From the NCBI GenBank assembly GCA_029977225.1, contig JAPOLH010000002.1, positions 1 through 50,947 on the forward strand: a stretch of DNA of 50,947 bases. The letters are read 5' to 3'. Shown here in pieces: positions 18,565 to 49,116 of the stretch. The notes under the pieces were generated by a model. The model saw only the letters and a list, made by a program, of their open reading frames with translations, made no database searches and was not told the origin of the DNA. This DNA comes from Verrucomicrobiaceae bacterium (GTDB lineage: Bacteria; Verrucomicrobiota; Verrucomicrobiia; Verrucomicrobiales; Akkermansiaceae). The first letter of the stretch is position 1. Each line of letters begins with the position of its first letter. The position numbers and the translations under genes are program-made.

Positions 18565-19713
18565 ATGCCTGCTACAAGTTCTCTACCAATCGCTCCCGAA
18601 ACCGTTCGCAAAATCAAGCTGCCATCCGGCCGTGAAATGCCCGCGCCGGCCTACGGCACTTTTCATTCGGACTGGGCGCAGGCGCTCATGAAGGACGCCA
18701 CGATCGAGGCCGTCCGCCTCGGTTGGCGGCACCTCGATACCGCCCGCGCTTACGAGAATGAGAATCTCATCGGCGAGTCGATCCGCGAGTCGATCAAGCG
18801 CGGTCACATCAAGTCGCGCGACGAGTTGTTCATCACCGGCAAGTTGTGGAACGGCCACATGAATCCGAAGGATGTCGCGCCCGCGCTCGAAGCAACTCTG
18901 CGCGATCTCGGCATCGACGAGATCGATTTGTATTTGAACCACTGGCCTTGGCCGAATGTGCACGCACCCGGCTGCACGGGAGACCACCGCAACCCCGATG
19001 CCGTGCCTTACATCCACGAGGCTTACCTCGAGACTTGGGCCGAAATTTGCAAACTGAAGAAGGCCGGAAAAATCATCGACATCGGCACCTCCAACCACAC
19101 CCGCGCCACGATGGAACTCCTCCTGCGCGATGTCAGTGCGGATGAACGCCCGGTCTGCAACCAGATGGAGCTCCACCCGCTTTTCCAGCAAACGGATCTC
19201 CGCCGCTACTTTGAATCGGAAGGCATCGTCTGCACCGGCTACATGGCGATGGGTTCGCCGAAGCGCCCGAGCCGCGACAAATTCAAGGAACACCGCTCGG
19301 ACATGCACGACCCGGTCATTCAGGAAATCGCCCGCGAGTGTGGCGTCTCCGCCGGTCAGGTCTGCCTCGCCTGGGCCGCCCAACGCGAGAATCACAGCGG
19401 CGGCTATGTCGTGATGTCCACCAACTCGGAGCGCATTTTGGAAAACCTCATCCCCGCCACGAAAGACATCCTCAGCGCCGATCAAATGCTCCGGATCAGC
19501 GGTGACGGAACCGATGAAAATCCCGGCATCGACGCCAACAACCGCTTGATCTGGGGTCAGGTCTTCCTCTGGCCCGAAGCCGATGGCGATTGGCGCCTCC
19601 TCTGGGACGACTCCCAGGTGTTCCTCACCCGCGAGGGCTACCAGCAATTCAAAAAATCCTGGGACGCTCACCACGCCGTACAAATCAAAAACACCCACCA
19701 AATTGCGAAATGA
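18565..19713 (+). CDS. Aldo/keto reductase (aldose reductase-like), first gene of a sugar operon
   Basis: A 382-residue cytoplasmic NAD(P)H-dependent aldo/keto reductase. The catalytic tetrad is complete: Asp58 and Tyr63 in HLDTARAYENE, Lys93 in FITGKLWN and His126 in YLNHWPWP. The HWP context is typical of aldose and xylose reductases. It is 50-70 residues longer than most AKRs, with an unusual C-terminal extension (LIWGQVFLWPEADGDW onward). Its stop overlaps the ATG of the RbsD-like gene (ATGA), so the two are probably translationally coupled. A mutarotase, a polyol-dehydrogenase-like ADH, a symporter and a PfkB kinase follow. That order suggests it reduces an imported aldose to a polyol. 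The reverse reaction, as an aldose dehydrogenase, is an alternative. Confidence 0.85.
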   Translation: MPATSSLPIAPETVRKIKLPSGREMPAPAYGTFHSDWAQALMKDATIEAVRLGWRHLDTARAYENENLIGESIRESIKRGHIKSRDELFITGKLWNGHMNPKDVAPALEATLRDLGIDEIDLYLNHWPWPNVHAPGCTGDHRNPDAVPYIHEAYLETWAEICKLKKAGKIIDIGTSNHTRATMELLLRDVSADERPVCNQMELHPLFQQTDLRRYFESEGIVCTGYMAMGSPKRPSRDKFKEHRSDMHDPVIQEIARECGVSAGQVCLAWAAQRENHSGGYVVMSTNSERILENLIPATKDILSADQMLRISGDGTDENPGIDANNRLIWGQVFLWPEADGDWRLLWDDSQVFLTREGYQQFKKSWDAHHAVQIKNTHQIAK

Positions 19714-20129
19714 AAGAAGTCGGAATGATCAATGGTCACATCGACTCGGCGCTCACCCGCCAAGGTCATGGTGATTTGATGATGGTGGTGGATGCTGGCT
19801 TTGCCTGCCCGGATCATGTGGAGGTCATCGACATCGCGTTGCGTGAAGGCGTGCCGACCGTGCTCGAAGTGCTCGACGAGCTGCGCAAGGTCCACTCGGT
19901 TGAAAAAATCGTGATGGCCCATGAAACGCGCGAGCACAACCCGACGCATTTCAAAAAGGCCTCCAAGGCCTTCGGCAAGAGCGTCGAAGTGGAAGCCATT
20001 CCCCACAGCGAGTTCAAACAACGGAGCCATCAGGCCAAAACCATCGTTCGCACCGGCGACTTCACCGCGTGGGGAAATGTGATGTTGGTCTCCGGCGCCG
20101 GCAACCGTTGGAAAATGGAAAAAAAGTAA
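19710..20129 (+). CDS. RbsD/FucU family sugar mutarotase
   Basis: A 139-residue protein of the RbsD/FucU family, which interconverts pyranose, furanose or anomeric forms of sugars. The catalytic His20 lies in RQGHGD, equivalent to RLGHTD of RbsD. The C-terminal part EFKQRSHQAKTIVRTGD, then WGNVMLVSG, is closer to RbsD (D-ribose pyranase) than to FucU (L-fucose mutarotase), so the sugar cannot be named. I chose ATG 19710, which overlaps the AKR stop; ATG 19725 is possible. The ADH gene begins 4 bp after the stop. Confidence 0.85.
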   Translation: MKEVGMINGHIDSALTRQGHGDLMMVVDAGFACPDHVEVIDIALREGVPTVLEVLDELRKVHSVEKIVMAHETREHNPTHFKKASKAFGKSVEVEAIPHSEFKQRSHQAKTIVRTGDFTAWGNVMLVSGAGNRWKMEKK

Positions 20130-20133
20130 ACCT

Positions 20134-21156
20134 ATGAGACAAGCCATCATGACCAAACCGGGGCACATCGAGTTCCGGACTGCCGAAGAGCCCGTTGCCG
20201 GACCCGGCGAAATTCTCCTTCGCATCAAAAAAATCGGCGTCTGCGGATCCGACATCCATGTCTGGCACGGCGAACACCCCTACACGCCGTATCCTGTGAT
20301 CCAAGGCCACGAATTTTCCGCCGTGGTCGAAGCCGTCGGCGCGGGCGTGACGAAGGTCAAGCCCGGCATGAAGGCCACTGCCGCCCCGCAGCAAGTCTGC
20401 GGAAATTGCAATCCCTGCAAGCGCGGGGATTATCACATTTGCGACAGCCTCAAGGTACGTGGTTTCCAGGCTCCGGGCTGCGCGCAGGATTTGTTCATCA
20501 CCACCGAGGAACGGATCGTACCGTTTCCCGAAAGCCTCAGCTTCGAGCAGGGCGCACTGATCGAGCCAGCCTCCGTCGCCGCACATGCCACCAACCGCGT
20601 ACCGACGCTCAAAGGAAAAAATGTCCTCGTCACCGGTGCTGGCACGATCGGCAACCTTGTCGCGCAAGCCGCGAAATGCCGGGGCGCGAAAAAGGTGCTC
20701 ATCACCGACCTGAGCGACTTCCGCCTGCAAAAGGCACTCGATGCTGGCATCGACGGTGTATGCAACGTGCGCAACGAAAAGCTCGCCGAGAAGTGCAAGG
20801 CGTTCTTTGGCGATGAGGGATTTGATGTCGCCTTCGAAGCCGTGGGCCACGAGCGCTCGCTCGATGATGCGATCCAGAACATCCAAAAGGGCGGCGACAT
20901 CGTGGTGCTCGGCGTCTTTGGTGGGAAGCCCAGCGTCGACATGTCCACCGTCGGCGACCGAGAAATCAGCCTCATCGGCACGCTCATGTACCGCCAAGAC
21001 GATTACGCGCAAGCGGTCGAATGGATCGCTTCGGGAGCGATGAAAACCTCTCTCCTCGTCACCAAACATTTCCCATTCGAGGACTACGAAAAAGCCTATC
21101 ACTTCATCGAAAAGGAAGCCGACAAGACTCTCAAGGTCGTCATTGATCTCGACTGA
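20134..21156 (+). CDS. Zinc-dependent alcohol dehydrogenase (sorbitol/L-iditol dehydrogenase-like)
   Basis: A 340-residue medium-chain dehydrogenase. The catalytic zinc ligands are Cys37 (GVCGSD) and His59-Glu60 (QGHEF). The structural zinc site is Cys89, Cys92, Cys95 and Cys103 (CGNCNPC and HIC). The Rossmann fold begins near 165 with VTGAGTIGN, and an Asp after the second strand (ITDLSDFR) suggests NAD rather than NADP. Overall it is closest to polyol dehydrogenases such as sorbitol and L-iditol dehydrogenase, which oxidise a polyol to a 2-ketose. Between an aldose-reductase-like gene and a ketose-type PfkB kinase, that role fits. L-fucose or other aldose dehydrogenase activity remains possible. 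Confidence 0.88.
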   Translation: MRQAIMTKPGHIEFRTAEEPVAGPGEILLRIKKIGVCGSDIHVWHGEHPYTPYPVIQGHEFSAVVEAVGAGVTKVKPGMKATAAPQQVCGNCNPCKRGDYHICDSLKVRGFQAPGCAQDLFITTEERIVPFPESLSFEQGALIEPASVAAHATNRVPTLKGKNVLVTGAGTIGNLVAQAAKCRGAKKVLITDLSDFRLQKALDAGIDGVCNVRNEKLAEKCKAFFGDEGFDVAFEAVGHERSLDDAIQNIQKGGDIVVLGVFGGKPSVDMSTVGDREISLIGTLMYRQDDYAQAVEWIASGAMKTSLLVTKHFPFEDYEKAYHFIEKEADKTLKVVIDLD

Positions 21157-21200
21157 TACGCAACCCATACCCAACCCATACCAATTCACCCTACTCCACC

Positions 21201-22895
21201 ATGAACATCTCCCCAATCGATGTGGCGGTCATCGCCATCTATCTCATCGGCATCACCGTCTTCGGCATCTGGGTCGGTTACCGCAAGAACGCCTCCTCCG
21301 ACCAATACTTCCTCGCCAACAAATCACTCGGCTGGTTCACGGTGGGTGCGGCCGTGTTTACCTCCAACATCTCCACGATTCACCTCGTGGGTCTGGCGGC
21401 CGGCGGTGCGAAGGACGGAATGGTGATCGGCAACTTCGAATTGATGGCCTGCACGACGCTCATCCTGCTCGCGCTGATTTTTGCGCCGTTTTACATCAAC
21501 TCGGCGGTGAAAACTCTGCCCGAGTTCCTTGAGCGCCGTTATTGCCCATCGGCGCGCACCTTCATGGCGGTGATCGGTTTGCTGGGCGCGCTGCTCATTC
21601 ACATCGGCATCAGCCTCTTTGCCGCGGCGAAGGTTTTTGAAAGCTTCCTCGGGGTTCCGATGGTTTGGACGATTATCGTCCTGTCACTTTTCACGGTGGT
21701 GTATACGGTACTTGGCGGACTCAAGGCCGTGGTGATGACCGAAAACATCCAGGTGGTTTTGCTCCTCCTTGGTGCAACCTTGGTGACCGTTCTGGGGATC
21801 TACGCGTTGCCTTCCGTGGGCGTCAACGACATGGCAAGCTTCCGCGCTGCACTGCCGGACGATCACATGAAAATGCTTCACCCGCTGGTGAACTCCAAGG
21901 GCCACCTGAGTGAGTTCTCATGGCTTGGCATTCTTCTCGGCTATCCGATTCTCGGCATTTGGTATTGGTGCGCCGACCAGACCCATGTCCAGCGCGTCCT
22001 CGCTGCACGCAGCTTGAAGGACGGTCAAAACGGTGCGCTGTTTGCCGGATTCCTCAAAATCACGCCTGTCTTCCTCATGGTGCTTCCTGGCTTGATCGGC
22101 TATGTGCTCTGGCAAAAAGGTGCCTTTCAGTTGCTCAATGCCCCGGGAACCAACCACCCCGACTTCAACACGATGCTGCCTGCATTGATCAACCACTTGG
22201 TGCCGGTCGGTCTCAAAGGGCTCCTTGCAGCGTGCATGGCTGCGGCGTTGATGAGCTGCATGGCTGCGGCACTCAACAGCTGCGCCACGCTGATCTCGAT
22301 GGACATGGTCAAGCGCATCCGCCCCGAGTCGTCCGACGATAAGGTGGTTTTCATCGGCCGCGTTGCGACAGCGGTCATCATGTTGCTTGCGATGCTTTGG
22401 TCCACGCAGGGCGATCAGTTCGGAACGATCTTTGAAGCGATCAATAAAATCCCGATGACCTTTGCTCCCGCGGTCACGACCGTTTTTGTGCTCGGTGTAC
22501 TTTGGAAACGCGGAACCAAAGAGGCGGCGATGACGACCCTCTACCTCGGGTCGCTGATCGGCGTGATTTATTTCATCATCGATATGCCAGGTGTTGGTCG
22601 GATGTTCCTCGGCGAGTTGGCTCACCCCAATTTCCTCGGGCTGGTTTCCGATCCCGTATCGGGCTTGGGCATTCCCTTCATGCTCGTCGGCCCGATGATC
22701 GCCGTTCTGTGCATTGCGATCTACATCGTCACGAGTCTGCTGACTCCAGCGATGGACGAAGCGGAGGTCGCCAAGGTTTGCTGGGACCACCCGCTTGCCT
22801 TCCTCAAGGGACCGGTGACGGCGCTGAGCGACCCACGAATCGTGACGCTGTTCCTCCTCGGCTCTTTGGTCGTCATTTACCTCTGGCTGCGCTAA
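21201..22895 (+). CDS. Sodium:solute symporter (SSS/SGLT family)
   Basis: A 564-residue membrane transporter with about 13-14 hydrophobic helices, beginning IDVAVIAIYLIGITVFGIWV. SSS features include YFLANKSLGWFTVGAAVFTSNIS in the first sodium-site region and LGGLKAVVMTENIQVVLLLLG. GYPILGIWYWCADQTHVQRV is the typical sugar-transporter motif of the SGLT branch. It probably imports the monosaccharide handled by the operon, using the sodium gradient. It follows the ADH by 44 bp, and the kinase starts 3 bp after its stop. Confidence 0.92.
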   Translation: MNISPIDVAVIAIYLIGITVFGIWVGYRKNASSDQYFLANKSLGWFTVGAAVFTSNISTIHLVGLAAGGAKDGMVIGNFELMACTTLILLALIFAPFYINSAVKTLPEFLERRYCPSARTFMAVIGLLGALLIHIGISLFAAAKVFESFLGVPMVWTIIVLSLFTVVYTVLGGLKAVVMTENIQVVLLLLGATLVTVLGIYALPSVGVNDMASFRAALPDDHMKMLHPLVNSKGHLSEFSWLGILLGYPILGIWYWCADQTHVQRVLAARSLKDGQNGALFAGFLKITPVFLMVLPGLIGYVLWQKGAFQLLNAPGTNHPDFNTMLPALINHLVPVGLKGLLAACMAAALMSCMAAALNSCATLISMDMVKRIRPESSDDKVVFIGRVATAVIMLLAMLWSTQGDQFGTIFEAINKIPMTFAPAVTTVFVLGVLWKRGTKEAAMTTLYLGSLIGVIYFIIDMPGVGRMFLGELAHPNFLGLVSDPVSGLGIPFMLVGPMIAVLCIAIYIVTSLLTPAMDEAEVAKVCWDHPLAFLKGPVTALSDPRIVTLFLLGSLVVIYLWLR

Positions 22896-22898
22896 AAA

Positions 22899-23774
22899 AT
22901 GGCATTGGCTCCACTGGTTGTCGGCATCGGCGAGGTGCTGTGGGATGTGTTTCCGGATGGCAAAAAGCTCGGCGGTGCCCCGCTGAACTTCAGTCATCAC
23001 TGCGGGCAACTCGGTGCTCGCGCGTTTCCCGTCAGCGCCGTCGGGGCGGATGCCGAAGGCGAGGAGATACGCCAAATTTTCGCATCAAAAAAACTTGTGG
23101 GTGATCATGTGCAAACAGATCCCGCGCATCCGACGGGGCGGGTGAATGTGACTTTGAAGGATGGCAAGCCAAGCTACGAGATCCTGCGTGAAGTCGCATG
23201 GGATTTTATCCGCTTCGATTCAAAGCTCCGCGATCTTGCCTCGCGAGCGGATGCGGTCTGTTTTGGATCGCTTGCTCAACGCGGTCCTGTTTCCCGTGCG
23301 AGCATTCATGAGTTTCTCGATGCCATGCGCCCAGACGCGCTGCGAATTTTCGATGTGAACCTGCGCCAAGATTTTTATTCGAAAGAGATCATCAAAGCAT
23401 CGCTTCAACGCGCAAACATCCTCAAGCTCAGCGACGAGGAATTGCCGGTGCTCGCGGAAATGTTTGGCCTCGCCGGTGAGGTTCACGCCCAACTCCAAGG
23501 TCTGCGCGAGATGTTCGGCCTTCGACTCGTCGCCTACACGCGAGGAGGGGAGGGGAGCCTGCTCATTGCAGCCGACGACATTTCCGATCACTCGGGGTTT
23601 CCTACCACGGTCGTCGACACTGTTGGCGCGGGGGATTCTTTCACCGCCACACTTTGCATGGGGTTTTTGCAAAAGCTCCCGCTTGCGGAGGTCAACCGCC
23701 GCGCCAATCAAGTGGCCGCCTTTGTTTGCTCGCAGGCGGGCGCGACGCCACCACTGAATCTACAGTTTGCATAA
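22899..23774 (+). CDS. PfkB-family sugar kinase (fructokinase-like)
   Basis: A 291-residue ribokinase/PfkB kinase. The N-terminal signature region is GIGEVLWDVFPDGKKLGGAP, in the style of fructokinases. The C-terminal PfkB signature VDTVGAGDSFTATL contains the catalytic base Asp246. It phosphorylates a sugar, most plausibly a ketose, with ATP in the cytoplasm. As the last gene of the AKR-RbsD-ADH-SSS string (3-bp gap after the symporter) it would trap the ketose made by the ADH. Fructose, or a deoxyketose such as L-fuculose or L-rhamnulose, are candidates. No FGGY-type rhamnulokinase or fuculokinase is present in the window. Confidence 0.88.
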   Translation: MALAPLVVGIGEVLWDVFPDGKKLGGAPLNFSHHCGQLGARAFPVSAVGADAEGEEIRQIFASKKLVGDHVQTDPAHPTGRVNVTLKDGKPSYEILREVAWDFIRFDSKLRDLASRADAVCFGSLAQRGPVSRASIHEFLDAMRPDALRIFDVNLRQDFYSKEIIKASLQRANILKLSDEELPVLAEMFGLAGEVHAQLQGLREMFGLRLVAYTRGGEGSLLIAADDISDHSGFPTTVVDTVGAGDSFTATLCMGFLQKLPLAEVNRRANQVAAFVCSQAGATPPLNLQFA

Positions 23775-23903
23775 AAATTTTCATACGCCCACCGACCAAG
23801 GTTTTACCGACCTCTGATCAGCGACGCCGTGCTTCCTCAGGGCTACTCAGAACAAATAGACGACATGCCACCCCACGCATCTCCCAACTCCACTTCGGTC
23901 ATC

Positions 23904-25670
23904 ATGAAATCACAGTCCGCCATCCGTCCGAAAACGGTCTGTGGGCGCATGCTCTTAACCACCCTGGTCTTGGCCAGTTCGCTGGTCGCTCATACAGCCT
24001 TGGCCGAGGATAAACCCGTTTACCCCACGCCCCCCGAAGTTTGGAAGGATTATGATCCCGATGCCGGCGACTTCAAAGAAGAGATCATCCTCGAGGAAAC
24101 GAAGGGTGGCATTTATTACAAGGACTCCTACATCAGCGCGTATGTGAACGGCGAAGAGGTTCGCGTATTTTGCAAATATGCCGTCAAAGCCGGCGCTCAA
24201 AAGGCCCCCGGGCTTTTGAACATCCACGGTTGGTATGCAGCCACGCGCTTGGACATGGATCTTGTGAACGACGGCTGGGCAGTACTGGCTCACGACTACT
24301 GCGGCAAAAGGGCAGGACGCCCGCACTACACGAAGTACCCGAAGAGCCTCATCTATGGCAACATGGATCAACCAACCGCCAACCCCGAGGGTTATGCGCC
24401 GTTTGATCTGAAAAAAATATCCAAGCCAAGCCAGTCGCCCGACTACCTGTGGTGCGCCCTCCAACGCCGAGCACTGAGCTATCTGTTGGCCCAAAAGGAA
24501 GTCGACAAAACCCGCATCGGCGCGAAGGGGTTTTCCTACGGCGGCACGATCATTTGGAATCTTGGCATGGATCCGCGCGTGAAGGCCATCATGGCCTATT
24601 TCGGCAGCGGATGGCTCACGTACTACCGCGAAAAGGCGGTTTGGATGTATAAAAACCCCTACGTCGAGCCACCGAAAACGCCAACCGAGGAAATGATCCT
24701 CACCTCGATCGCCCCCGAGGCCCACTCGCCCTACATCACGGCGGCGACGCTGTGGTTGAATGGCACGAACGACCACCACGGCGGCCACGAACGCGGAGAG
24801 CAGAACTTCAAAAAATTCCAACCCGGCGTGCCATGGGATTTCGCCCATCATCCTCGCGGGCATCACGATACCTCCAAGCTCGGAAACATCGCCAAACTCT
24901 GGCTTGAAAAACATGTCCTCGGCAAGCACATCGACTGGCCCGCACGCCCCACTACGGCAATCAAACTCGATGCCGCCGGCCTGCCCGAAATTCATGTGAA
25001 GCCTGCCTCGATCGACAAGATCGAATCTCTGGATGTCTATTATGCCCTCAAGGAGCCAAACAACTGCGCGCGCTACTGGCTCGACGCCAAAGCCGAAAAA
25101 CAAGGCAACGAATGGGTGGCAAAATTGCCGGTCAAAAATGTCGACGACTATGTCTTTTCCTTTGCCAACATCCGCTACAAGGGAGACATCGTGATTTCCA
25201 CGGACTTCACGGCGGCGATTCCCTCCAAGCTTGGCAAGGCCCTTGCCACTCGCGTGGATGCCGAGGATGGCAGTGAGTCGTGGAGCGATGTCGGCCCGGT
25301 CGAGGGAGTTGGCGGCATCAAGGCGCTGCGCCCGCTCAACAACAGATTTGGAACCACTTGCCGGCAATTTGACGAACCCAAACGCAAGGCGCCCAAAGGT
25401 GCCGTGATGAACTTCCGTTTCTACTGCACCCAACCGCAAACGATCATCCTCTCGGCCAACGATCATTTCAGCACGGAGATCGAAATCACCGCATCCAACG
25501 ATTGGCAGGCGATCGAGATTCGCCCCGAACAACTCCGTTTCCAAGGCATTCATGCCCCACTCGGCAGTTGGAGCCAGGTCAAAACCATCGCGCTGAAACC
25601 CAAGCCCGGTTCGGACATCACCAAGATGGTTTTTGCGGATGTGAAGTGGAAGGTCGCCGCGCCAAAATAA
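23904..25670 (+). CDS. Secreted alpha/beta hydrolase (acyl/peptidyl hydrolase-like) with C-terminal beta domains
   Basis: A 588-residue exported serine hydrolase. The start at 23904 (context ATCATG) gives a signal peptide with VCGRMLLTTLVLASSLVAH and cleavage near ALA-ED. The nucleophile is Ser211 in GFSYGG; LLNIHGWYAATRLDMD is the oxyanion-side strand, and HHPRGHHD supplies the catalytic-His region. After about residue 355 there is a beta domain (IESLDVYYALKEPNNCARYW) and then a C-terminal jelly-roll-like segment. The middle beta domain resembles the C-terminal extension of the sulfatase at 43132-45015. Likely a polysaccharide or oligosaccharide deacylase; the substrate is unknown. Confidence 0.75.
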   Translation: MKSQSAIRPKTVCGRMLLTTLVLASSLVAHTALAEDKPVYPTPPEVWKDYDPDAGDFKEEIILEETKGGIYYKDSYISAYVNGEEVRVFCKYAVKAGAQKAPGLLNIHGWYAATRLDMDLVNDGWAVLAHDYCGKRAGRPHYTKYPKSLIYGNMDQPTANPEGYAPFDLKKISKPSQSPDYLWCALQRRALSYLLAQKEVDKTRIGAKGFSYGGTIIWNLGMDPRVKAIMAYFGSGWLTYYREKAVWMYKNPYVEPPKTPTEEMILTSIAPEAHSPYITAATLWLNGTNDHHGGHERGEQNFKKFQPGVPWDFAHHPRGHHDTSKLGNIAKLWLEKHVLGKHIDWPARPTTAIKLDAAGLPEIHVKPASIDKIESLDVYYALKEPNNCARYWLDAKAEKQGNEWVAKLPVKNVDDYVFSFANIRYKGDIVISTDFTAAIPSKLGKALATRVDAEDGSESWSDVGPVEGVGGIKALRPLNNRFGTTCRQFDEPKRKAPKGAVMNFRFYCTQPQTIILSANDHFSTEIEITASNDWQAIEIRPEQLRFQGIHAPLGSWSQVKTIALKPKPGSDITKMVFADVKWKVAAPK

Positions 25671-25757: not shown

Positions 25758-28700
25758 ATGAAACATTCGTTCTTACTCCTTGCCGCAGGGCTTTTCCTCT
25801 TTTCTTCCTGCAAACAAAAATCGCCGCAGTTGGTGACACTGCCCGAGCCACCACCACCCCCAAAAATCAACGCCACTGCCACCGGTACCAGTGGACCCGG
25901 GCCGCAAACAATCAAGGGCGGCGATGTGACGATGACCCTTGCCGCAGACAGCAAGCCGCTTTCGTTCACACAAGGAAACGGTCCGAATTTGCTCCGTGAG
26001 AAAGATCCCGGCCAAGGGTTTTACCTCACGACGGGCACGGCGCCTGATGACAAAAACATTCCAATCACGAACATTGAGTCCAAGGACGGCAAGTTGATCC
26101 TCACCGCTGCCGACAACACCCGCGTGACCCTCGCGGTGAATGCCGGGAACCGACACATTTCCTTCAACCTCGAAAACATCGAGAATGTCCCACAAGGCAC
26201 CGAGCCGGTTTTGAATTTTGTGTTGAATTTTAAATTCAAGTATTTTCCGGAAATGGTGGCGTTCGATTACATGATCCGCCTGAGGGGAAGGTATGACACT
26301 GCCCGCTCTCTTGCGACGGCCTCGTGGCCGTATTTCTGGAAACGCACCAAGAACGACCCGGCTGGCGGCTTTGCCTTTTTCATTCCGCAAAATGAGGAAG
26401 AGCACAACGAGGCACTGTTTCGCATTTGGACGGAGGAAAATGTCCCACACCCGAAAGTCGAGGGCGAGTGGACCTACGAGCGCGCGAAGCAATGGGCCGA
26501 GGAGTGGAGCAAGAACGCCGAGGACACGACGCACTTGATGATCAGCGCCGAGAAGCCCGAGGATTTGGATCCACTCATCGATTACGCAAAAAAATTGAAA
26601 GTCAGCCGTGTCTACATGCATACCGATACTTGGCGCGGGCAGTATTGGGTCCAGGACCGCGACTCGCTCTCGGCGAACACCAAGGTCTTCCCACGCGGCG
26701 AGGAGGACCTGAAGGCCTTCATCGACAAGCTCAAGGCGAACGGCATGGGAGCGATGATGCACACGCTCTGCTATGGCATCGGGCCGGAGGGATCGAAGTA
26801 TATGGGCAAGGGGAAAAAGACCGACCGCCGCCTTGCCAACTGGGGCAAGGGCAAGCTGGAACAGCCCGTTTCGGCGACCGACAAAACCATTCTCTTCCGC
26901 CCCGACCCAGGCGTGAAGTTTCCTGATCCGGACACCTCCCTGCCATGGCCGAAAAGCCTGCCTTCTTACCAAGCTCGCACCGAAATCCTAATCGGCGACG
27001 AGATTGTCAAATGCACCTTCACGGATACCGATAAGCCGGTGTGGAAACTCATCAACTGCGTGCGTGGGCCAGAGCCTGCCAAGCATCAAGCAGGCACCGA
27101 GATCCTCGGTCTGCTGAAGCCCTACGGCCAGAACTACTATCCGAGTAGTATGTCGGATCTTATCGAGATCACCGCCAAAGATTACGCGGAGTTCTTCAAC
27201 CGCCTTGGCGTCCAACACCACGAATACGATGGTGCGGAATGCCACAATGATGTGCCTTGGGGATTCTCCAAGTGGTCGATGTTCGTTTACCAAAACACCA
27301 AGCTGCCGATGACTTCCAACACCTCGAGTGCCAGCGCCAACCCGTGGGATCTGATGTACCGGCTCAAAAAGAACGGGGAAGAAAAAGCCCGCAACAAAGG
27401 CAGCAACCACGGCGGCCCCAGCGGCATCGCCGTGCTGGCCCTCCAACGGGACAGCCGTCTCGCAACAAGTCCGATCGAGAACCATTTCACCATGGCGCTC
27501 GGCGCGACTGTCAACACGCCGGGATATGTTTTTGGAAAACCTGAGCCGATGTTTGGCCTGTTTCCGAATGTCATCCGTGACCACGGCCTCGCCCCGTTGA
27601 TCGCCGAGCAGTTCACAGTATGGCGGGAGATTGCCCCCAAGCTCACCCCGAAATTGCGGAAGCAAATTTCCGAGACTTACAAAGAGATTCCTGGTTCAAG
27701 CCATCGCAGCGCCAAAATCGTCTATGAGGCCCGGCGCGCTGGGAGCGGCTATGAGCTGCAGCCCTTCACCATCATGACCCGCGGCAAGCAGGATGCGGAT
27801 TGGACGACGGTGCAGGAATTTTCCAACGTCCTGCCCCGCCAGTATGTGGTTCCCGGCATGCGTGTGAAGTTGGACAATCCCTTCGGGCCCCAAGTCCCGC
27901 AATTCATCATTCGCGTGATGAGCGGCTACACCGACACGGCGGTGGACATCCCACACGCTGCGCCTACCGAGGTGCTGAGCAAGGACATGCAAGACTACCT
28001 CGCCGCCTCTGGCGTGCAGACAAGTAGCACCGCTGCGGCATCCGCCGCCACACCTGGGGCGTCCAACGCAGACCCCTACCGCCTGCAGCCCAAGGCCGCG
28101 CAGATAAGCAATCACGGTCGCCATCAGTTCAAGGATGTCGATTCGGCTCTCCAGGTCTCCTTGGATAATTTGAACAAGCCGGAAATTTTCCAGCAGGTGG
28201 TATTTCCAGTCTCCGCATTCAAGGGTAACTCACAAAACTCCCCTGGTCTTGCCCTCACCGTCACTGGCGATGGCAGCGGTGCGCTCCTCGTGATCCAGGT
28301 CGGCCCCCGCAAAGACTATGTTGTGCCGATCGACTTCACCGGGCGTAAGGACATTTTCATACCGACCAGCGAGACCTCGCGCACGGTCGGTGGTTGGGGG
28401 ATGCGCTACACCACGAAGGGGGCGACCTACGGCATCTTCCACGGCGTTTCCATCGGCTTCGGCAGAGTCCCTGCCAACGCTCACCCGAAGATCCTCATCG
28501 AAAACCTTCGCATGGTTGGTGAAAAAGCATCGTCGGTCAAAAACCCGGTCATCCACGCGGGTACCGGCACGCTTGCGATCCAAGGCGAAGTGAAAAGCAA
28601 CCAATACCTCTGGTACCAAGGCGGCGATTCGGTCGGCGTTTACGACAAAAACTGGAACCTCCAAGCCACTCTGCCCGTCGTGGCTAGAAACTACACGATC

Positions 28701-28859
28701 ATGAAAGGTTTTTCCGAATTCTGGATCGAAGGCGAATGCTCCGCTCCGTCGCCGTGGTTTGATGTGCAATTCATCACCAAAGGCGAAACGATCAAACTCG
28801 CCGATGCTTCGCCACCTCCAAGCTCGCAAGTCCAACCGGCTCCATCCAAAAAGCCATAA
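25758..28859 (+). CDS. Large lipoprotein, putative TIM-barrel glycoside hydrolase of unassigned family
   Basis: A 1033-residue predicted lipoprotein: the signal MKHSFLLLAAGLFLF runs into the lipobox FSSC, followed by a proline-rich linker. Residues about 60-250 look like a beta-sandwich N-domain. From about 250 to 640 the pattern is TIM-barrel-like, with KVSRVYMHTDTWRGQYW, DLKAFIDKLKANGMGAMMH and QHHEYDGAECHND near residue 490, where the Asp and Glu could be catalytic. The last 300 residues contain two beta-rich modules, the final one (FTGRKDIFIPTSETSRTVGG) resembling a carbohydrate-binding domain. I do not recognise a CAZy family. It stands between the hydrolase and the LamG gene, so a role in the same glycan pathway is likely. 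Anchoring in a membrane, exposed outside the cytoplasm, is expected. Confidence 0.62.
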   Translation: MKHSFLLLAAGLFLFSSCKQKSPQLVTLPEPPPPPKINATATGTSGPGPQTIKGGDVTMTLAADSKPLSFTQGNGPNLLREKDPGQGFYLTTGTAPDDKNIPITNIESKDGKLILTAADNTRVTLAVNAGNRHISFNLENIENVPQGTEPVLNFVLNFKFKYFPEMVAFDYMIRLRGRYDTARSLATASWPYFWKRTKNDPAGGFAFFIPQNEEEHNEALFRIWTEENVPHPKVEGEWTYERAKQWAEEWSKNAEDTTHLMISAEKPEDLDPLIDYAKKLKVSRVYMHTDTWRGQYWVQDRDSLSANTKVFPRGEEDLKAFIDKLKANGMGAMMHTLCYGIGPEGSKYMGKGKKTDRRLANWGKGKLEQPVSATDKTILFRPDPGVKFPDPDTSLPWPKSLPSYQARTEILIGDEIVKCTFTDTDKPVWKLINCVRGPEPAKHQAGTEILGLLKPYGQNYYPSSMSDLIEITAKDYAEFFNRLGVQHHEYDGAECHNDVPWGFSKWSMFVYQNTKLPMTSNTSSASANPWDLMYRLKKNGEEKARNKGSNHGGPSGIAVLALQRDSRLATSPIENHFTMALGATVNTPGYVFGKPEPMFGLFPNVIRDHGLAPLIAEQFTVWREIAPKLTPKLRKQISETYKEIPGSSHRSAKIVYEARRAGSGYELQPFTIMTRGKQDADWTTVQEFSNVLPRQYVVPGMRVKLDNPFGPQVPQFIIRVMSGYTDTAVDIPHAAPTEVLSKDMQDYLAASGVQTSSTAAASAATPGASNADPYRLQPKAAQISNHGRHQFKDVDSALQVSLDNLNKPEIFQQVVFPVSAFKGNSQNSPGLALTVTGDGSGALLVIQVGPRKDYVVPIDFTGRKDIFIPTSETSRTVGGWGMRYTTKGATYGIFHGVSIGFGRVPANAHPKILIENLRMVGEKASSVKNPVIHAGTGTLAIQGEVKSNQYLWYQGGDSVGVYDKNWNLQATLPVVARNYTIMKGFSEFWIEGECSAPSPWFDVQFITKGETIKLADASPPPSSQVQPAPSKKP

Positions 28860-29001: not shown

Positions 29002-31112
29002 ATGAAAACACACACGATATCTCTTGCCGCCCTTTGCACGCTCGGCGCACTGGCGTTTGCCCAAGTGCCGGATCAATCGAAGCCGATGGCCTCGTGGTCA
29101 TTCGAGCAACTCTTGGGCAGTGATCCCGCCAGGAAAATGGTTCATGAGCCGACCGCCAAATTGCAAGATCTGGTCGATGGTTTTCCGACGCTTGCGCAAG
29201 GGGTCGTCGGCAATGCCTTGAAGCTCGATGGGTTGGCTACACGGCTCATCCGTCCCGCCGACAAGGCTCCAGCGCTAGGCCAAGCATTTTCCTTCGAAGC
29301 CTGGATCGATTGCAGGAATACCCCTGGAACTGGGCGGCGATCGCGAATCAGGAGCGCGACCACAAAGAGGGTTGGTTCTTTGGCATCGGTGGTGACGGTC
29401 GCCTTGGCCTTCATGTTGCCAAGGACGGAAAATGGATCGAGTGCAACTCGAGGTCAAAGCTTCCGCTTCTCAAGTGGACGCATGTTGCTGGCAGTTATGA
29501 TCCGGCGCTTGGACTCAAGGTTTTCATCAACGGAAAACTCGAAACTGAAATCAAAACCACCGGCCCGATCACTTTGGCGCAGAGTGTGGATTTGTGGGTG
29601 GGCTTGAGCCATACCAAGACCTTTCCAATTCGCACCGAGCGTGCCTACAGCGCTTCGTTCAAATCGCCGATGCTCCTCGACGGACTTCTCGATGAGGTGA
29701 AGATCCACAGCCGTGCTCTCACCGATGCCGATGCCGCGCAGGCCTTTGCCGCTGTGCAACCAAAGGTCGCGCAGCCGCTGCAATTTCGTCGCATGCCCTC
29801 CGGCCCGGATGGCCCAGGCGAGTTTGGCGCGGTCTACACACGGCTCAACTACGCACCGGAATGGGAGCGGCACTGGAGAGTGGGAGACCACTGCGACATT
29901 CTCGTGCGCTTCGACAACTCGCCCAGTCGCATTGTGTTCTGGCGCGGGACGAATTACGGCGCCTGCTATGTCAGCGAAAACGGCCTGTGGGCTGGTGATC
30001 AGAGCCTCGAGGCAAACAGCAATACCACCGGTTGCTACGAACACATGGCCGACAAGAAGTGCTCATTCTCCACAGCCAAGATCCTTGAAAGCAACGACGC
30101 ACGCGCGGTCATCCACGCCCGCTACGCCTCGGTTGGCATCGACGGAAAATTCCTCGACCCTGATCCGCTCACCGGCTGGGGGCTTTGGTCCGACGAATAT
30201 TTCACGATCTATCCGGACGGTGTGGCTGTGCGCCATGTGGTCGCCAAAAATCATTTCAATGGCGGCGGAGAATGGCAGGAAACCCTGCTGTACAACCAGC
30301 CCGGCATGCGACCGGAGGACACGGTGGATCTGAAGGCTCTCACTCTCGCCAACCAAAAGGGCGAAACCCACACCTACTCGTGGGAGAATGGACCGCCAGT
30401 GAAGTTCAACAACCCCAAAGGTCCGCGCAATTTCCAACACCCCGCGCAGGCAAGCATCCAACTCGTCAACTTCCGTTCAAAATGGAAGCCGTTCATCGTG
30501 TATGAGCCGGATGTCACGCTCATCCCGCTCGGCATCGGACCGAGCTCGGATTATTCGAAGTTCCCCTGCTGGAACCACTGGCCGGTCGCCCAGTTGCCCA
30601 ATGATGGTCGCAAAGCGATCGTCTCCGACAAGCCATCGCACTTTTCACTCTGCACCTCGCGCGGAGTGATTCGCCGCAATCCCGAGGGCAGCGAATCGGT
30701 GTATCTCTACGGCATGACCGATCAGTCGATTGATAGCCTCGTCCCGCTCTCGAGGTCGTGGAACTCCGCCCCAAAGGCAAGCATCGTGAGCAGCGGCATC
30801 GAAGGTGGGTCCTATGACAAAAACCAGCGTGCCTATCTCTTCACCACAAAGGACACCAAAACCGGTACGCTCGAGTTCAGCCTCGATGCCAGCCCCGACT
30901 CACCGATCCACAATCCCGCCTTCGTCGTGAAAAACTGGGGCAAGCGCCCGGCCAAAATCACAATCGACGGCAAGAAAATCCCCCGTGGCAAAGACTTCCG
31001 CTGCGGTCATCAAACAACCGCCGATGGCACCGACCTCGTGGTGTGGGTGAAAACCAAGAGCGACAAGAAATCTTCATTCAAAATCGAAGCATCACCAACC
31101 AAAGCGGACTAG
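29002..31112 (+). pseudogene. LamG-domain protein of uncharacterised family, frameshifted near 29308
   Basis: Encodes about 700 residues with a signal peptide (MKTHTISLAALCTLGALAFA). An N-terminal LamG/concanavalin-like domain (about 25-240) is followed by a long C-terminal region shared with the protein at 46450-49116. The frame breaks inside LamG: FSFEAWI in the first frame is followed in the second frame by QEYPWNWAAIANQ, where the paralogue has VEAWVAIAAYPWNWTP without a break. One missing base at about 29305-29312 (atcgattg) explains it. Downstream the sequence is intact and conserved: FDNSPSRIVFWRG, SWENGPP, FPCWNHWPVAQLPNDGR and TDLVVWVKTKSDKKS to the stop. A recent mutation or a sequencing error are both possible. 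The function of the family is not known to me; see the linked finding. Confidence 0.8.
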
Positions 31113-43131: not shown

Positions 43132-45015
43132 TTATTCGACATGGGTTCCTCCCAGAGTGATGGCGGCGTTGGCGTAAGTGTTGCCCTTATCGGGTGCCTG
43201 AACCGGCTTGGGATGGCTCACGAGGAAATTGTTTTCATCAATCAAATTGATGTAAGCGTGGGTGGCCTCCGGGGGAAGCGTGGCTTTGACCACGCCGTTC
43301 TCGATCTCGCCAAATGCACGGAACCACTCCTCGGTCTTTTCGCCGGGGTGAATCGCGTAGATCACATCCGCGCGGACCACGCGTGCGCCGTTTTCCTGAA
43401 AGCTTGCCGTGACCGTCTGGCCGTCCACCTTATGCCCGGTGACTGTCGGAACATGCTTCTGATTGGGAAGTGGAAATTTGCAGTCAGGATTCCAGTAGGG
43501 AAGGCTGGCTTTCATTTCGGTGAGGATTTCGCTAAGGCGGGCATTCATCGCGGCGGTTTTTTCCGGCATTTCGCCGGCAAGGTTTTTTGCCTCCTCGATG
43601 TCCACGCGCGCGGTCTTGCCGTTCTTGGTTTCGGCCAGCCTGTAGAGTTCAAGTGGCGGCATATTTCTACTATGAATATCGTAGTTTCGGATCAGCTTGA
43701 AATCCGCCGTGCGAATTGTGCTTTGGAAGGATGTGGAGCCACCATGCGGGTAATGCCAAACCATCTCCGTGCGGGGCTTGCCGTGTTGATCGCGCACGAG
43801 CGAGGGATCACTCACCGCTCCGGTAAGCAGCGGAAGGAGATCGGCGCCGTCGAGGTTTTTTCCCTTCGGCTTCGCGATGCCGGACATCGATAGAATGGTG
43901 GGGTAAAAATCGAGGCCGTTGACCATCACATCGCTCTCTTTGCCGGCGGATATCCCTGGGCCGGCGATGAGGAACGGCACGCGCACGCCGCCTTCCTTCG
44001 CCGACATTTTCCCTTTGTCGAGCGGAGCGTTGTCGGTGATCACCTCCTTGCCCGCCCCCTCCATGCCCCCATTGTCGGAGGTGAAGAAAATGTAGGTGTT
44101 GTCGATGAGCTTGTGGCCGGGATTGCGCGGGTCGTCGGTGATTTCGAGGAATTCAACGAGTTGGCCGACATAGTGGTCGAGCGTTTCCACCATGGCGCAG
44201 TAGTAGGGATTTTTCTGGCCCTCGAGCGTCCACTCGCCGGGGTCGGTCGGGAAATCCACGCCGAACTTCTTGCAGTATTTTTCCAGGAGCGGCTTGCTGC
44301 GAGAATAGATCGGGGTGTGGACGAGCCAGGTCGCGTAGTAGAGGAAGAATGGCTTGGCCTTGTGGGTCTCCATGAACTCCAGCGCGGCGGTGGTGACTGG
44401 GTCGGTGGGGAAGCCATCGGCATCGAGGCGGTAGCGATCGCCCGGCTGATCGGTCGCAAAATCTTGGATGCGGTTTTTCATGCCGGACTGCACCCCGCGG
44501 GCATCGAAGCCACTGCGGTGCGAGGTGAAGTCGAACCCTTGATCCAAGGGGCCGGGAAACGAGTGGTGATCCTTGGCCATGTGCCATTTTCCGGTGTGAC
44601 CGGTGGCGTAGCCGTGCTGACGGAGAATCTTGGCGAGCGTGAGTTCGTTTTCCGGCATGCGGCCGCTGTACCACGGGGTGATCAGCCTATCATTTTTGTG
44701 TGCAGCAGGCGGATCGCCACCCACAACATGAGTTTTTTGGGCCCGGGCGGGGTGGTTCCCGCTCATGATCGCGCAACGGCTCGGAGCGCAGGTCGGCGCG
44801 GGCGAGTAGCCGCTGCGGAAGAGGACGCCGCGCTTGGCCAGCGCGTCGAGGTTCGGCGTTTCCATCGGGCTCGGCGCGTCGATGTCATAGCATTTTACGT
44901 CCTGCCAACCCAGGTCGTCCACAAGCATGACAACGATGTTTGGAGCGGGTGCGGCGTGGGCAGGAGTGGCCAGCGCGATGCCGAGAGAGAGAAGAGCGAG
45001 TATGTTTTTAATCAT
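43132..45015 (-). CDS. Secreted type I sulfatase with C-terminal beta extension
   Basis: A 627-residue S1-family sulfatase. The signal peptide MIKNILALLSLGIALATPAHA precedes NIVVMLVDDLGWQD, which supplies metal-binding Asp residues. The formylglycine motif is Cys76-Ala-Pro-Ser-Arg80, so an anaerobic or FGE-type maturase is needed. TGHTGKWHMAKD and FTSDNGGMEG are the remaining signature segments. After about residue 530 a small beta domain (ADVIYAIHPGEKTEEWFRAF) ends in NAAITLGGTHVE. A similar ITLGG tail occurs as a relic at 4782-4838, and a related beta domain occurs in the hydrolase at 23904-25670. It removes sulfate from a carbohydrate, probably a fucose-rich glycan given its GH29 neighbour. 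Its promoter region contains an element shared with the second sulfatase. Confidence 0.93.
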   Translation of the reverse strand: MIKNILALLSLGIALATPAHAAPAPNIVVMLVDDLGWQDVKCYDIDAPSPMETPNLDALAKRGVLFRSGYSPAPTCAPSRCAIMSGNHPARAQKTHVVGGDPPAAHKNDRLITPWYSGRMPENELTLAKILRQHGYATGHTGKWHMAKDHHSFPGPLDQGFDFTSHRSGFDARGVQSGMKNRIQDFATDQPGDRYRLDADGFPTDPVTTAALEFMETHKAKPFFLYYATWLVHTPIYSRSKPLLEKYCKKFGVDFPTDPGEWTLEGQKNPYYCAMVETLDHYVGQLVEFLEITDDPRNPGHKLIDNTYIFFTSDNGGMEGAGKEVITDNAPLDKGKMSAKEGGVRVPFLIAGPGISAGKESDVMVNGLDFYPTILSMSGIAKPKGKNLDGADLLPLLTGAVSDPSLVRDQHGKPRTEMVWHYPHGGSTSFQSTIRTADFKLIRNYDIHSRNMPPLELYRLAETKNGKTARVDIEEAKNLAGEMPEKTAAMNARLSEILTEMKASLPYWNPDCKFPLPNQKHVPTVTGHKVDGQTVTASFQENGARVVRADVIYAIHPGEKTEEWFRAFGEIENGVVKATLPPEATHAYINLIDENNFLVSHPKPVQAPDKGNTYANAAITLGGTHVE

Positions 45016-45161: not shown

Positions 45162-46343
45162 TCATTGCCCGGCTCCGTCGATCGCGGGTTCGCTCTGTGG
45201 CTTAGCTTGCTTTTTGATGACTCCGGGAACAGCCGTGACCTTTGGTGTTTTTTTGTGAATGGGTGTCGCTTTCAACAACTCGGCCGTTTGCTTCAGGATG
45301 GCATACGCTTCGGGCTGAACCCGGCCATTTCCATCCGGCCCGACATTCAAGAGGAGGTTGCCACCCTTTTCGTTGATGTCCTTGAGCTTGTTATAAATCG
45401 TTTGGGCGTCCTTCCAGTTGTTGTCGTTCTTCTTGTAACCCCAGGACTTGTTCATCGTGTAACACCCTTCCCAATGCTTGGGAAAAGCGTTCATGAAGTG
45501 TTCTTGTTCTTGGGTCACAAAATCCAATTCATAGCCATCACGCTTGGCCACCCGGTTGTTGACGATGATATGGGGGCTTGCCTCCCGAATGGCGTTGTAG
45601 AGCTCGATGCCATCCTGCATCGTCCACCAGTTTGCCCAGTCTCCATCAAACCAGAGCACGGCTGGATCGTATTTACGGATCAATTCCAAGACTTGGTTCT
45701 TTTGGTAATCGACATATTCCTGCTTTCGGTTGTCCACGATGATGGTTAACCCCGACCATTCCTTTTGGCCAAGTTCCGAAGGACGCTTCTGGGTCGGGTG
45801 GTTCCAGTCGATGATGCTGTAATAAATCCCGAATTTGATCCCGTGCTTGTTGCAGGCTTGGCGGAGTTCCTCAAGAATATCGCGCCCTTGGAATGGCGTA
45901 CTGGCGACATCGAAATCGGTGTACTGGCTGTCCCAAAGGCAGAATCCTTCGTGGTGCTTGGAGGTGATCACCAGATAGTTCATCCCGGCCTCTTTTGCGG
46001 ATCGGACGATCAAATCGGCGTCGAAATCGGCTGGATTGAACGACTTGGTGAGTTGCGCGTATTTTTTACGGTCGACATTGGCATTGCCTTGGATCCATTC
46101 GGCATATCCGTCAAAGGGTTTGCCCTCCCAAACGCCACCAACCATAGAATAAAGGCCGAAGTGGATAAACATTCCATACGGTGAGTCCACAAACCATTGC
46201 ATGCGAGAGTTGTAGGCTTCAAGGGACTCCTCCTTTGGCACCACTTTGGCCACCTCTTCCTTGGCAAAAGCAACCGGAAGAACTGCCAAGAGACTGGCTG
46301 CGATGATGTTGTGAAAAGTTATCTGTGTTCTATGTATTTTCAT
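45162..46343 (-). CDS. Secreted GH29 alpha-L-fucosidase
   Basis: A 393-residue alpha-L-fucosidase without accessory domains. The signal peptide runs to AFA-KEE. GH29 landmarks are WFVDSPYGMFIHFGLYSMVG, ITSKHHEGFCLWDS, KFGIYYSIIDWNHPTQ and the predicted nucleophile Asp233 in AVLWFDGDW. NKSWGYKKNDNNW and GGNLLLNVGPDGNG follow. It ends with a lysine- and proline-containing tail (KKTPKVTAVPGVIKKQ). It is the third fucosidase in the window and differs clearly from the other two in this tail and in its WNHPTQKRP loop. It has a probable own promoter with a very short leader, 106 bp beyond the LamG gene. Confidence 0.94.
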   Translation of the reverse strand: MKIHRTQITFHNIIAASLLAVLPVAFAKEEVAKVVPKEESLEAYNSRMQWFVDSPYGMFIHFGLYSMVGGVWEGKPFDGYAEWIQGNANVDRKKYAQLTKSFNPADFDADLIVRSAKEAGMNYLVITSKHHEGFCLWDSQYTDFDVASTPFQGRDILEELRQACNKHGIKFGIYYSIIDWNHPTQKRPSELGQKEWSGLTIIVDNRKQEYVDYQKNQVLELIRKYDPAVLWFDGDWANWWTMQDGIELYNAIREASPHIIVNNRVAKRDGYELDFVTQEQEHFMNAFPKHWEGCYTMNKSWGYKKNDNNWKDAQTIYNKLKDINEKGGNLLLNVGPDGNGRVQPEAYAILKQTAELLKATPIHKKTPKVTAVPGVIKKQAKPQSEPAIDGAGQ

Positions 46344-46449: not shown

Positions 46450-49116
46450 TCATGGATTGCTTGGTTTGGCGCCTTTGATGGAAATTTCCACTGGTGTGGT
46501 GGCATCGATCTCGAGCCAGACGACGAGCTCGCGGCGTCCGTTTGTGTCTAGGACTGTTCCCTGCCGGAGATCACGCGCCTTGGTGCCCTTGACGGAAACC
46601 TTCGCGTTTCCGGAGTGGCCCCAGTTTTTTACGGTGAGGCTAAGGTTAGCGACTGGGTGCTCGGGGGAGGCGTCGATAGAAACGGCCATCGTGTCCTTCT
46701 CGGCGATCAGCGGATATTCGCGGCTGGCGGGTTCGTAGGGGAGGGCCTTGCAGCCACTCTTTGCGGTGATCGGCGGGGCTTTCAACCACGACTTCGCGAG
46801 CGGCACCAACTCGGCGGGCTTGAGCTTCGTCATGCCTTCCATGAGGAGCCTTTCCTGATAGGGCCGATCACCGTCTTGCTGCTTGTGGTTTGGCAGAAAG
46901 ACATGGGTGAGTGAGCAGTGCGAGGTGCGATCGGGGTGCTTGGCATTTCGTCCATCGGAGGGAAGTTGGCCGATGGGCCAATGGTTCCACCATGGGAAGA
47001 CGGATACTTCGGTGACTTCGCCAGAATAGACATTTCCATTGGTAAATTCCCCGATCGTGAATGGGCTGTAGTCGCCCTTGAAGTGGACGACATGGATTTT
47101 TGTGTCGCGGTAATTGACGCCTTTGGGTGGGCCGCTTTCCCAAGAGTAATCGCGGGTTTCGCCGCTGAGCGTGGCCAGCGAGAGCGCGGGGTTGGTTTCA
47201 ATCACCTGCTCGGGATGCTGGTCGGGACCAAAGATGACCATGCCTTCCTGCCATTCGTGGTTGTAGGGGCCGGTGCTCCAGAGGCGCATGCGCTTCGTGG
47301 CCACGCCGTCGGGATAGATCGTGTAGGTCCAGTCGCTCCAATCGCTCCAACCGGTCTGCTCGTCGTAGTTGGCCTTCACGCGAAACACATCAATGAGCGG
47401 GAAGCGCCACTGGACGACGACACGGGCTGGGGTGTTTTCGAGGATCTTCACATGGTTTGAGAAGGCTTCCTTGTCGGACATCGGCTCCATGCAGCCCCGT
47501 CCGCCGGAGCGGTTCCATGTCTCGTTGAATTCGTTGCTATACCAATGGCCTTTTTCGTTCACGAGCATGGGGATGAATCCCATGCCCCGCCAAAACACAA
47601 AACGGCTCGGGTTTTTATCGAACTCCACGACCACATCGGGGTGCGGACCAAAGCGGAAGAGACCATCCCAGGTGTCATAGAATTCCAGGTTGGTGAAATG
47701 GGCGCCGAACTTGCCGGTGCTTGGGCCGGTGGGCAGAACGCGGGACGGGATGTCGGGCGAAGCGGGTGCGCCATCCGCGAGTTGGAGGATTCTGCAGGAG
47801 GACGCCACCTGAGTGGTTGTCAGCGGTGAATCGTAAATCCGAACCTCGTCGATAAGGCCATCGAACGAATACTGCGAGGCGAATCGTTGCCTGACATTAT
47901 ACATCTGCGGCAGGGGTTTCCCTTGGCCGATTTGCAGATACCCCGTGGGTTGATCGATGCCCTCTTTGGGGGCGGGTTGATCGGCGGCCAGCCGCCCGTC
48001 GATGTAAAGACGGAGCCGTCCCGCAACTTTGTCATAGACGCCGGAGAGGTGATACCAGCGGCGGCGTTCGAGGAACTGACCTGATTGGACCCGGACGGGT
48101 TTGCCACCGGATTGGATGCCGAATGCCACATGGCCGTCCGCATCGATGCCGAGATAGCAGTTTTCGTTTTCGCCGAGTTGGACGACGGGCGTCCAATTCC
48201 AAGGATAGGCAGCGATGGCCACCCATGCTTCGACGGTGAGTCCATTGGCGCCGAGCGGAACATTCTCAACCGGCACGCGCAGCGCGGTGTTGTACCCATC
48301 AAAAGCGAGTGCCGTGCCCGACATGCCCTTTCTCCAGTAAGCCATTGGGCCCTTGATGGTGCTCGATGCACCCGTAAGCGATTCGGCGGTCGTGTCTCCC
48401 ACACCTTCGTCGAATTTCCACCACCTGATTGGTGCAACAACGGTGCGCTTCACAAGCGGAGACCCAGCAACGGGTGGTTTGGGGGCGGAGCGAACGGGCG
48501 GTTTTTCGCCGAGGGCCTTAATGCCGTTCGAGGAGAGTTGGAGCGTGAAGGTGTTAAGATTTTGAGGATCGGTCCAGTCCTCCCGCTTGGGGCTTGCTGC
48601 GCGAAAAGTGCGCTCCACTCGACCGTTCGGAGTGACGATGAAATACTCGTCGACAAACTTGTCCGAAGCCACGAGGTCGAGTTGGGTTCCCGGCTCAGGC
48701 GTCCTCGGGTAATAAGGCAAGTTGGTTTTCGTGGGATTGGGATTCCCGGGTGAGAATTTCGGAAGGTAGCGCCAGTGGATGACCACGCGCTGCGGCGAAC
48801 TTTCGATGATCCTCGCCACCGAGTAGGTGTTGACCTTGTCGGGGCGTGTTGCGGGACCATCGCCGCTGCGGGGGGTGAGTTCCTGGAACGGATGGCGGTT
48901 TTTACCCGCCTCCCAGACTGGCAGATAACTGGTGGCGCGGGAGAAAACGATGCGCCCTGATTCTCCCGTGATTCCTCGCACAACGATGTCCGCCTCGTCG
49001 CTGGTGCGGGAGAATTTTTCGAACTCTTCGCCGGAATCAACCTTGGTGTAATAAGCGCCGAATTCTGCGCCGTGCGCGGTGACACAGAAGGCGAGAAATA
49101 GAAGAAATGGTTTCAT
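46450..49116 (-). CDS. Secreted LamG-containing protein of an uncharacterised family, with internal duplication
   Basis: An 888-residue protein with a signal peptide (MKPFLLFLAFCVTAHG). Residues about 18-190 form a beta-rich module starting FGAYYTKVD. A LamG/concanavalin-like domain follows at about 230-445 (WWKFDEGVGDTT, VEAWVAIAAYPWNW, FDGLIDEVRIYDSPLT). From about 469 the first module recurs (FGAHFTNLEFYD, DVVVEFDKNPSRFVFWRG) and extends into a long C-terminal region with conserved SWESGPP, FPWWNHWPIGQLPSDGR near residue 710 and ELVVWLEIDATTPVE. The LamG and C-terminal parts match 29002-31112. It lies 24 bp after a sulfatase gene and 106 bp before a fucosidase. The function is unknown; a binding protein or a new type of glycan-active enzyme are both possible. 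Confidence 0.75.
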   Translation of the reverse strand: MKPFLLFLAFCVTAHGAEFGAYYTKVDSGEEFEKFSRTSDEADIVVRGITGESGRIVFSRATSYLPVWEAGKNRHPFQELTPRSGDGPATRPDKVNTYSVARIIESSPQRVVIHWRYLPKFSPGNPNPTKTNLPYYPRTPEPGTQLDLVASDKFVDEYFIVTPNGRVERTFRAASPKREDWTDPQNLNTFTLQLSSNGIKALGEKPPVRSAPKPPVAGSPLVKRTVVAPIRWWKFDEGVGDTTAESLTGASSTIKGPMAYWRKGMSGTALAFDGYNTALRVPVENVPLGANGLTVEAWVAIAAYPWNWTPVVQLGENENCYLGIDADGHVAFGIQSGGKPVRVQSGQFLERRRWYHLSGVYDKVAGRLRLYIDGRLAADQPAPKEGIDQPTGYLQIGQGKPLPQMYNVRQRFASQYSFDGLIDEVRIYDSPLTTTQVASSCRILQLADGAPASPDIPSRVLPTGPSTGKFGAHFTNLEFYDTWDGLFRFGPHPDVVVEFDKNPSRFVFWRGMGFIPMLVNEKGHWYSNEFNETWNRSGGRGCMEPMSDKEAFSNHVKILENTPARVVVQWRFPLIDVFRVKANYDEQTGWSDWSDWTYTIYPDGVATKRMRLWSTGPYNHEWQEGMVIFGPDQHPEQVIETNPALSLATLSGETRDYSWESGPPKGVNYRDTKIHVVHFKGDYSPFTIGEFTNGNVYSGEVTEVSVFPWWNHWPIGQLPSDGRNAKHPDRTSHCSLTHVFLPNHKQQDGDRPYQERLLMEGMTKLKPAELVPLAKSWLKAPPITAKSGCKALPYEPASREYPLIAEKDTMAVSIDASPEHPVANLSLTVKNWGHSGNAKVSVKGTKARDLRQGTVLDTNGRRELVVWLEIDATTPVEISIKGAKPSNP

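Follow-up and report, generated by a model that had tools for sequence, protein, structure and literature searches.

A widespread bacterial family of LamG-bearing proteins with a conserved core of about 420 residues and an association with fucosidase genes

Two family genes and their surroundings in the window

The window analyzed here is one contig of 50,947 bases, taken from a genome assembly of 1.75 Mb (89% complete, 167 contigs). It contains two genes, gene A (29002..31112, + strand) and gene B (46450..49116, − strand), which both encode a signal-peptide-like start, a LamG domain and a core of about 420 residues. The first-pass annotation had recognized LamG in both proteins, and the profile PF13385 indeed detected it with E-values of 1.1e-15 in gene A and 2.2e-25 in gene B; the scores of 58.5 and 90 bits both lie above the gathering score of 27.6. 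Likewise, the region outside LamG, described as common to the two proteins and carrying motifs such as WNHWP and DGR, was recovered by BLASTP with 33% identity over 618 aa (5e-92). The cores alone are 35% identical.

Gene A was initially taken for a single protein. It consists of two frames instead, 29002-29607 and 29310-31112. The alignment with L032 (the ortholog from another genome, 79% identical to the gene A core), L036 (a further homologue) and L002 (an intact paralogue) showed that exactly one base is missing after position 29308, inside the LamG domain, where all three references have a C. Otherwise gene A is colinear with them, with gaps of three only. The sequence fits a sequencing or assembly error as well as a recent pseudogene. 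The part of the LamG domain located 3′ of the frameshift (29322..29732, +) covers PF13385 profile positions 31-149, and the core extends over 29811..31109 (+). All core residues are numbered according to gene A, with residue 1 starting at window base 29811.

Gene B encodes 888 aa in one intact frame. Its signal-peptide-like start is followed by a degenerate half-core (48598..49071, −), the LamG domain with the PF13385 match (47803..48297, −) and the core common to gene A (46453..47721, −). HHalign aligned the half-core to core columns 2-146 with a probability of 99.9 and an E-value of 3.5e-32, and the same stretch appears as a second BLASTP segment against gene A. The equivalents of E67 and E77 are missing from the half-core in the HHalign alignment. 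A third intact family copy, L002, is located on another contig of the same genome (G000:C3) and codes for 675 aa (67% identity); by eye, the gene 3′ of it encodes an alpha-L-rhamnosidase-like sequence. Neither this copy nor the half-core of gene B had been noted before.

A decayed copy had also been proposed at 4853-5062. A family remnant is present there, but it comprises merely the 3′ end of about 28 codons (4966..5049, +), detected by tblastn (61% identity across 28 codons that include one stop, E=2.4e-4) and by blastn (4972-5035, 83%, E=2e-13). Directly after this remnant, a GH29 gene (4881-6253, +) is broken into two frames that cover profile positions 23-249 and then 251-345, which suggests either local decay or sequence errors.

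Both genes had been described as lying among sulfatase, GH29 or esterase genes. For gene B this holds: it is adjoined by a GH29 alpha-L-fucosidase (45162..46343, −; PF01120, 4.1e-79) and flanked by two sulfatases, one nearby (43132..45015, −; CAPSR) and one directly upstream (49141..50643, −; CSPTR), both with the C-x-P-S/T-R signature. For gene A the claim comes down to a 613-aa alpha/beta-hydrolase-like protein (23829..25670, +), whose gene lies two genes upstream. Between them is a gene for a protein of 1033 aa without Pfam or NCBIfam match (25758..28859, +). Relatives of both upstream proteins are also found near the ortholog L032. The 1033-aa protein has matches near family members at L038 (68% over 1019 aa) and L032 (72% over 372 aa) and, judged from these alignments, is a second unannotated protein of the family loci. 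Further upstream are genes for an aldo/keto reductase, a Zn-dehydrogenase, an SSF sugar symporter and a PfkB kinase (18565..23774, +); relatives of the latter three are found repeatedly next to family genes of other phyla. The window also encodes L-rhamnose isomerase, class II aldolase, RhaT and three GH29 genes, including the broken one. In addition, a set of PSD1, DUF1501 and PSCyt1/DUF2231 genes occurs twice, in differing orders (8-4765 and 32344-38274, +), and an 821-aa open frame without Pfam match (38344-40809, +) follows PSCyt1/PSD1/DUF1501 genes.

A family unnamed in the libraries searched

Searches with the core, run with individual sequences and with a profile, returned no credible match in Pfam (21 members and ten distant members) or NCBIfam (63 members). 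When the two window proteins were compared with PHROGs, the LamG part alone was matched and the core was not. A sequence-profile search of PDB chains gave best E-values of 0.16 and 0.5, over short unrelated stretches. The proposal of an undescribed family was thus borne out across Pfam, NCBIfam, PHROGs and PDB sequences, and no profile of a characterized lyase, hydrolase or binding family matched the core. Plasmid records contained no family match, and 41 pattern matches on viral contigs included no relatives. A literature search, with subscription papers mostly outside its reach, found no published description of the family. DUF4861 (PF16153), DUF6807 (PF14100) and MdoG (PF04349), which were chosen as mainly-beta candidates and are all encoded in genomes related to that of the window, were rejected as relatives of the core, with HHalign probabilities of 0.1 to 5.5%.

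In one scan of GTDB species genomes, relatives were encoded in 316 stretches. The record names of the best 80 of these 316 include Verrucomicrobia, Planctomycetota, Bacteroidetes, Acidobacteria, Aminicenantes, TA06, Armatimonadetes and Caldisericaceae, which places the family in at least eight phyla. The closest homologues are in records named Spartobacteria, Terrimicrobiaceae and Puniceicoccaceae, and the same-genus genomes include Akkermansiaceae records. Many record names indicate lake, soil or sediment origins, so the substrate is not necessarily brown-algal fucoidan. The spread is patchy. At E 1e-5, matches were present in 12 of the 59 near relatives (two of these via LamG alone). Among 387 genomes sampled from the phylum, 8 had the family, and among 294 from one other phylum, 7. 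Single genomes contain up to 19, 13 and 10 matches, although a few of these are pieces of one gene.

The domain order was determined for 96 open frames. LamG followed by the core is the most frequent arrangement (79 frames); half-core-LamG-core, the class of gene B, was found in nine, extra LamG matches in three and the core alone in five, some of the last being cut by contig ends. Among individual members, L012 (G015:C19) is, by eye, fused behind an N-terminal isochorismatase-type hydrolase-like stretch, L010 and L024 have additional repeat regions around the core, and the distant core L171 (G444:C1:126000-130000) has a long charged coiled-coil-like insertion in its C-terminal block. Taken together, and as far as sequence comparison tells, this is a widespread family of secreted bacterial proteins with a LamG-type module and a conserved core of about 420 residues, unnamed in the libraries searched.

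Four charged residues are constant across divergent members

In the alignment of 63 members (A3), E67, E77, D81, R98, Y134, H256, W257 and P258 are invariant, and in the DGR motif D265 varies in four members and R267 in five. A second alignment of 19 rows (A5) included ten distant members from a profile search of other genomes, which are 20-33% identical and have no LamG match. Here E67, E77, D81 and R98 remained unchanged in all 19 rows, down to about 20% identity; their codons in gene A start at 30009, 30039, 30051 and 30102 (30009..30104, +). E129, Y134, D136, R141, E157 and W257 are each changed in one row. E129 and R141 are not essential, because gene B has W in place of E129 and K in place of R141. 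H256 was kept in 14 rows and lost in five distant ones, and D265, G266 and R267 are mostly lost in the distant members.

These patterns do not agree with the earlier suggestion that WNHWP and DGR define the active site. The strip from W254 to D273 (WNHWP ... DGR ... D; 30570..30629, +) is mostly specific to the LamG-bearing clade, and we infer from its conservation that the two motifs are largely a clade-specific loop. Judged in the same way, the functional set is most likely E67, E77, D81 and R98. An alignment of six showed that the N-terminal half-cores of the 900-aa class lose both glutamates, E67 and E77, which would fit a role of these residues in the active core.

The core is predicted to be almost entirely beta

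The structure prediction that the first-pass annotation had called for was obtained for the intact ortholog L032. An AlphaFold2 model based on an alignment of 56 sequences reached a mean pLDDT of 93.3 and a pTM of 0.91. In this model, the LamG domain occupies about residues 25-251. The core that follows (273-698) consists almost exclusively of beta strands; it has a single long helix (576-587) and a last strand block from 592 on. From the strand order in this model we would guess a beta-supersandwich fold for the core. Comparison of the whole L032 model by VIA-align gave matches to LamG only. The best was domain 4 of the arabinanase AbnA (5hon and full-length entries; Z about 23, rmsd 2.4-2.6, 194-195 residues). 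The receptor-binding domains of clostridial neurotoxins were also among the matches; they share the common concanavalin-like sandwich and are uninformative on function.

Fucosidase genes are enriched near family members

We analyzed gene neighborhoods in 14 genomes, 13 picked for holding the family plus the window's own, with 59 places in 35 clusters. GH29 genes were present within 10 kb of 13 of the 35 clusters, compared with 1.8 expected by random placement (Poisson P about 6e-8). Without the window's cluster, GH29 was near 12 clusters versus 1.7 expected. GH3, the single control family, was near two of the 35 clusters versus 0.64 expected. The claimed association with fucosidases therefore survives both the random-placement test and the control, with 22 of the 35 clusters having no GH29 within 10 kb.

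Neighboring proteins were also clustered for 76 GTDB loci, leaving out the window and counting the near-identical L102 and L103 apart. Recurring neighbors were relatives of the window's SSF symporter (17 loci) and of its Zn-dehydrogenase (Zn-ADH, 13), sulfatases (16), GH29 (11) and further family copies (23). Wide recurrence was limited to these groups. An amidohydrolase found at seven loci resembles L-fucono-1,5-lactonase, which acts in the oxidative pathway of L-fucose; the scanned member matched NF052480 at 3.2e-87, below the curated cut-off. The Pfam scan of the neighbors returned many families, each a few times, including GH106, GH20, GH31 and URO-D. The homologues are thus not devoid of glycan-related context. 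Fucose and rhamnose consumption with clusters of GH29 and sulfatases has been described for Verrucomicrobiota in a study whose main text does not mention LamG (PMC8857213).

A possible enzyme for fucose-containing glycans

Of the original proposal of an undescribed carbohydrate-active family, the missing annotation and the glycan context stand, and an enzymatic role is what conservation and context may point to. We give an even chance to the reading that these proteins are secreted, undescribed carbohydrate-active enzymes of hydrolase type for fucose-containing glycans. In such an enzyme, the N-terminal LamG would hold on to the polymer as a carbohydrate-binding module. The all-beta core would be the working part, most likely a glycosidase and less likely a lyase, and its substrate would be a fucose-containing, often sulfated glycan. 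Catalysis or the holding of the substrate would likely fall to E67, E77 and D81 together with R98, and in the LamG-bearing clade the WNHWP...DGR loop would probably line the substrate site and tune specificity. The products may then be trimmed by the neighboring sulfatases and GH29 enzymes, and the freed sugar may be taken up by the SSF transporter and used by the L-fucose oxidation-type enzymes.

Several observations argue for such an enzyme: the invariance of E67, E77, D81 and R98 across very divergent members, the high copy numbers in some genomes, which are usual for polymer-degrading enzymes, the high-confidence prediction of an almost all-beta core, and the likeness of the LamG to AbnA domain 4 together with the occurrence of LamG on the fucoidanases Fda1 and Fda2. 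The excess of GH29 and the recurrent SSF, sulfatase, Zn-ADH and lactonase-like genes point to fucose-containing glycans in particular. The varied context, with many clusters lacking GH29 and with GH106, GH20, GH31 and URO-D nearby, speaks against this interpretation. In addition, genes for polysaccharide use generally occur in clusters, which means that proximity does not establish the substrate, and the conserved acids could alternatively be structural or metal-binding. A more specific proposal, which we put forward with somewhat less confidence, is that the core represents a new carbohydrate-active family with its own all-beta fold variant and an acid-rich active site of E67, E77, D81 and R98. 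In Verrucomicrobiota, Planctomycetota, Acidobacteriota, Bacteroidota and other groups, it would then provide a missing step, depolymerizing or debranching, in the use of fucose-containing glycans.

Alternatively, the protein could be non-catalytic, with LamG and the all-beta core both binding the polymer and offering it to sulfatases and GH29. We consider this rather unlikely. LamG modules are usually binding domains, the core contains many invariant Trp, Tyr and Arg residues, the sequence searches revealed no known family's catalytic motif, and the 900-aa class retains its degenerate extra half-cores, all of which would suit a binding protein. However, four charged residues constant at about 20% identity are more than a binding surface usually keeps, and many divergent copies per genome better fit enzymes of differing specificity.

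That the core is a polysaccharide lyase rather than a hydrolase, acting through the conserved Tyr, His and Arg residues (Y134, H256, R98 and R141), seems improbable. All-beta lyases exist, the substrates of the family loci may carry uronic acids, and Y134 and H256 are kept throughout the main family; yet H256 is dispensed with in distant rows and R141 is replaced in gene B, and it is the acids that stay constant. Least probable is membership in an existing CAZy family outside Pfam, NCBIfam and PDB, such as the endo-fucanases GH174 or GH187: the libraries searched include no profile for either, Fun187A has 101 kDa (PMC11943901), binding modules occur in fucanases (PMC11943901, PMC6267234) and the GH174 candidate residues D119, E120 and E218 are likewise acidic (PMC11943901), yet GH107 and GH168 structures are solved (PMC11943901) and no PDB sequence matches the core.

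Relation to known systems

With more than 300 loci and up to 19 matches in one genome, a family unnamed in the annotation libraries searched is a blind spot in predicting bacterial diets. If the proteins are enzymes, the invariant residues, the intact homologues and the predicted substrate class make a ready candidate set. Verrucomicrobiota are known to devote many genes to hard-to-degrade fucose-containing polysaccharides (PMC8857213). The endo-fucanases of GH168, GH174 and GH187 share with the family the context of fucose-containing sulfated polymers, but GH168 is a TIM barrel (PMC11943901), in contrast to the predicted all-beta core.

Laminin_G_3/LamG (PF13385) corresponds to the N-terminal ~200 residues of both window proteins, before the core; it covers the binding module only and is uninformative on the core. 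The best solved match to this LamG is domain 4 of the GH43 arabinanase AbnA (5hon, Z 22.8), which the authors who described it consider a new carbohydrate-binding module (PMC9110388). The known fucoidanases Fda1 and Fda2 carry LamG domains as well (PMC6267234). They are similarly secreted and directed at fucose polymers, but their LamG is C-terminal, whereas here it is N-terminal of a core that has no sequence match among PDB chains. In kind, the family resembles the secreted modular enzymes of polysaccharide loci.
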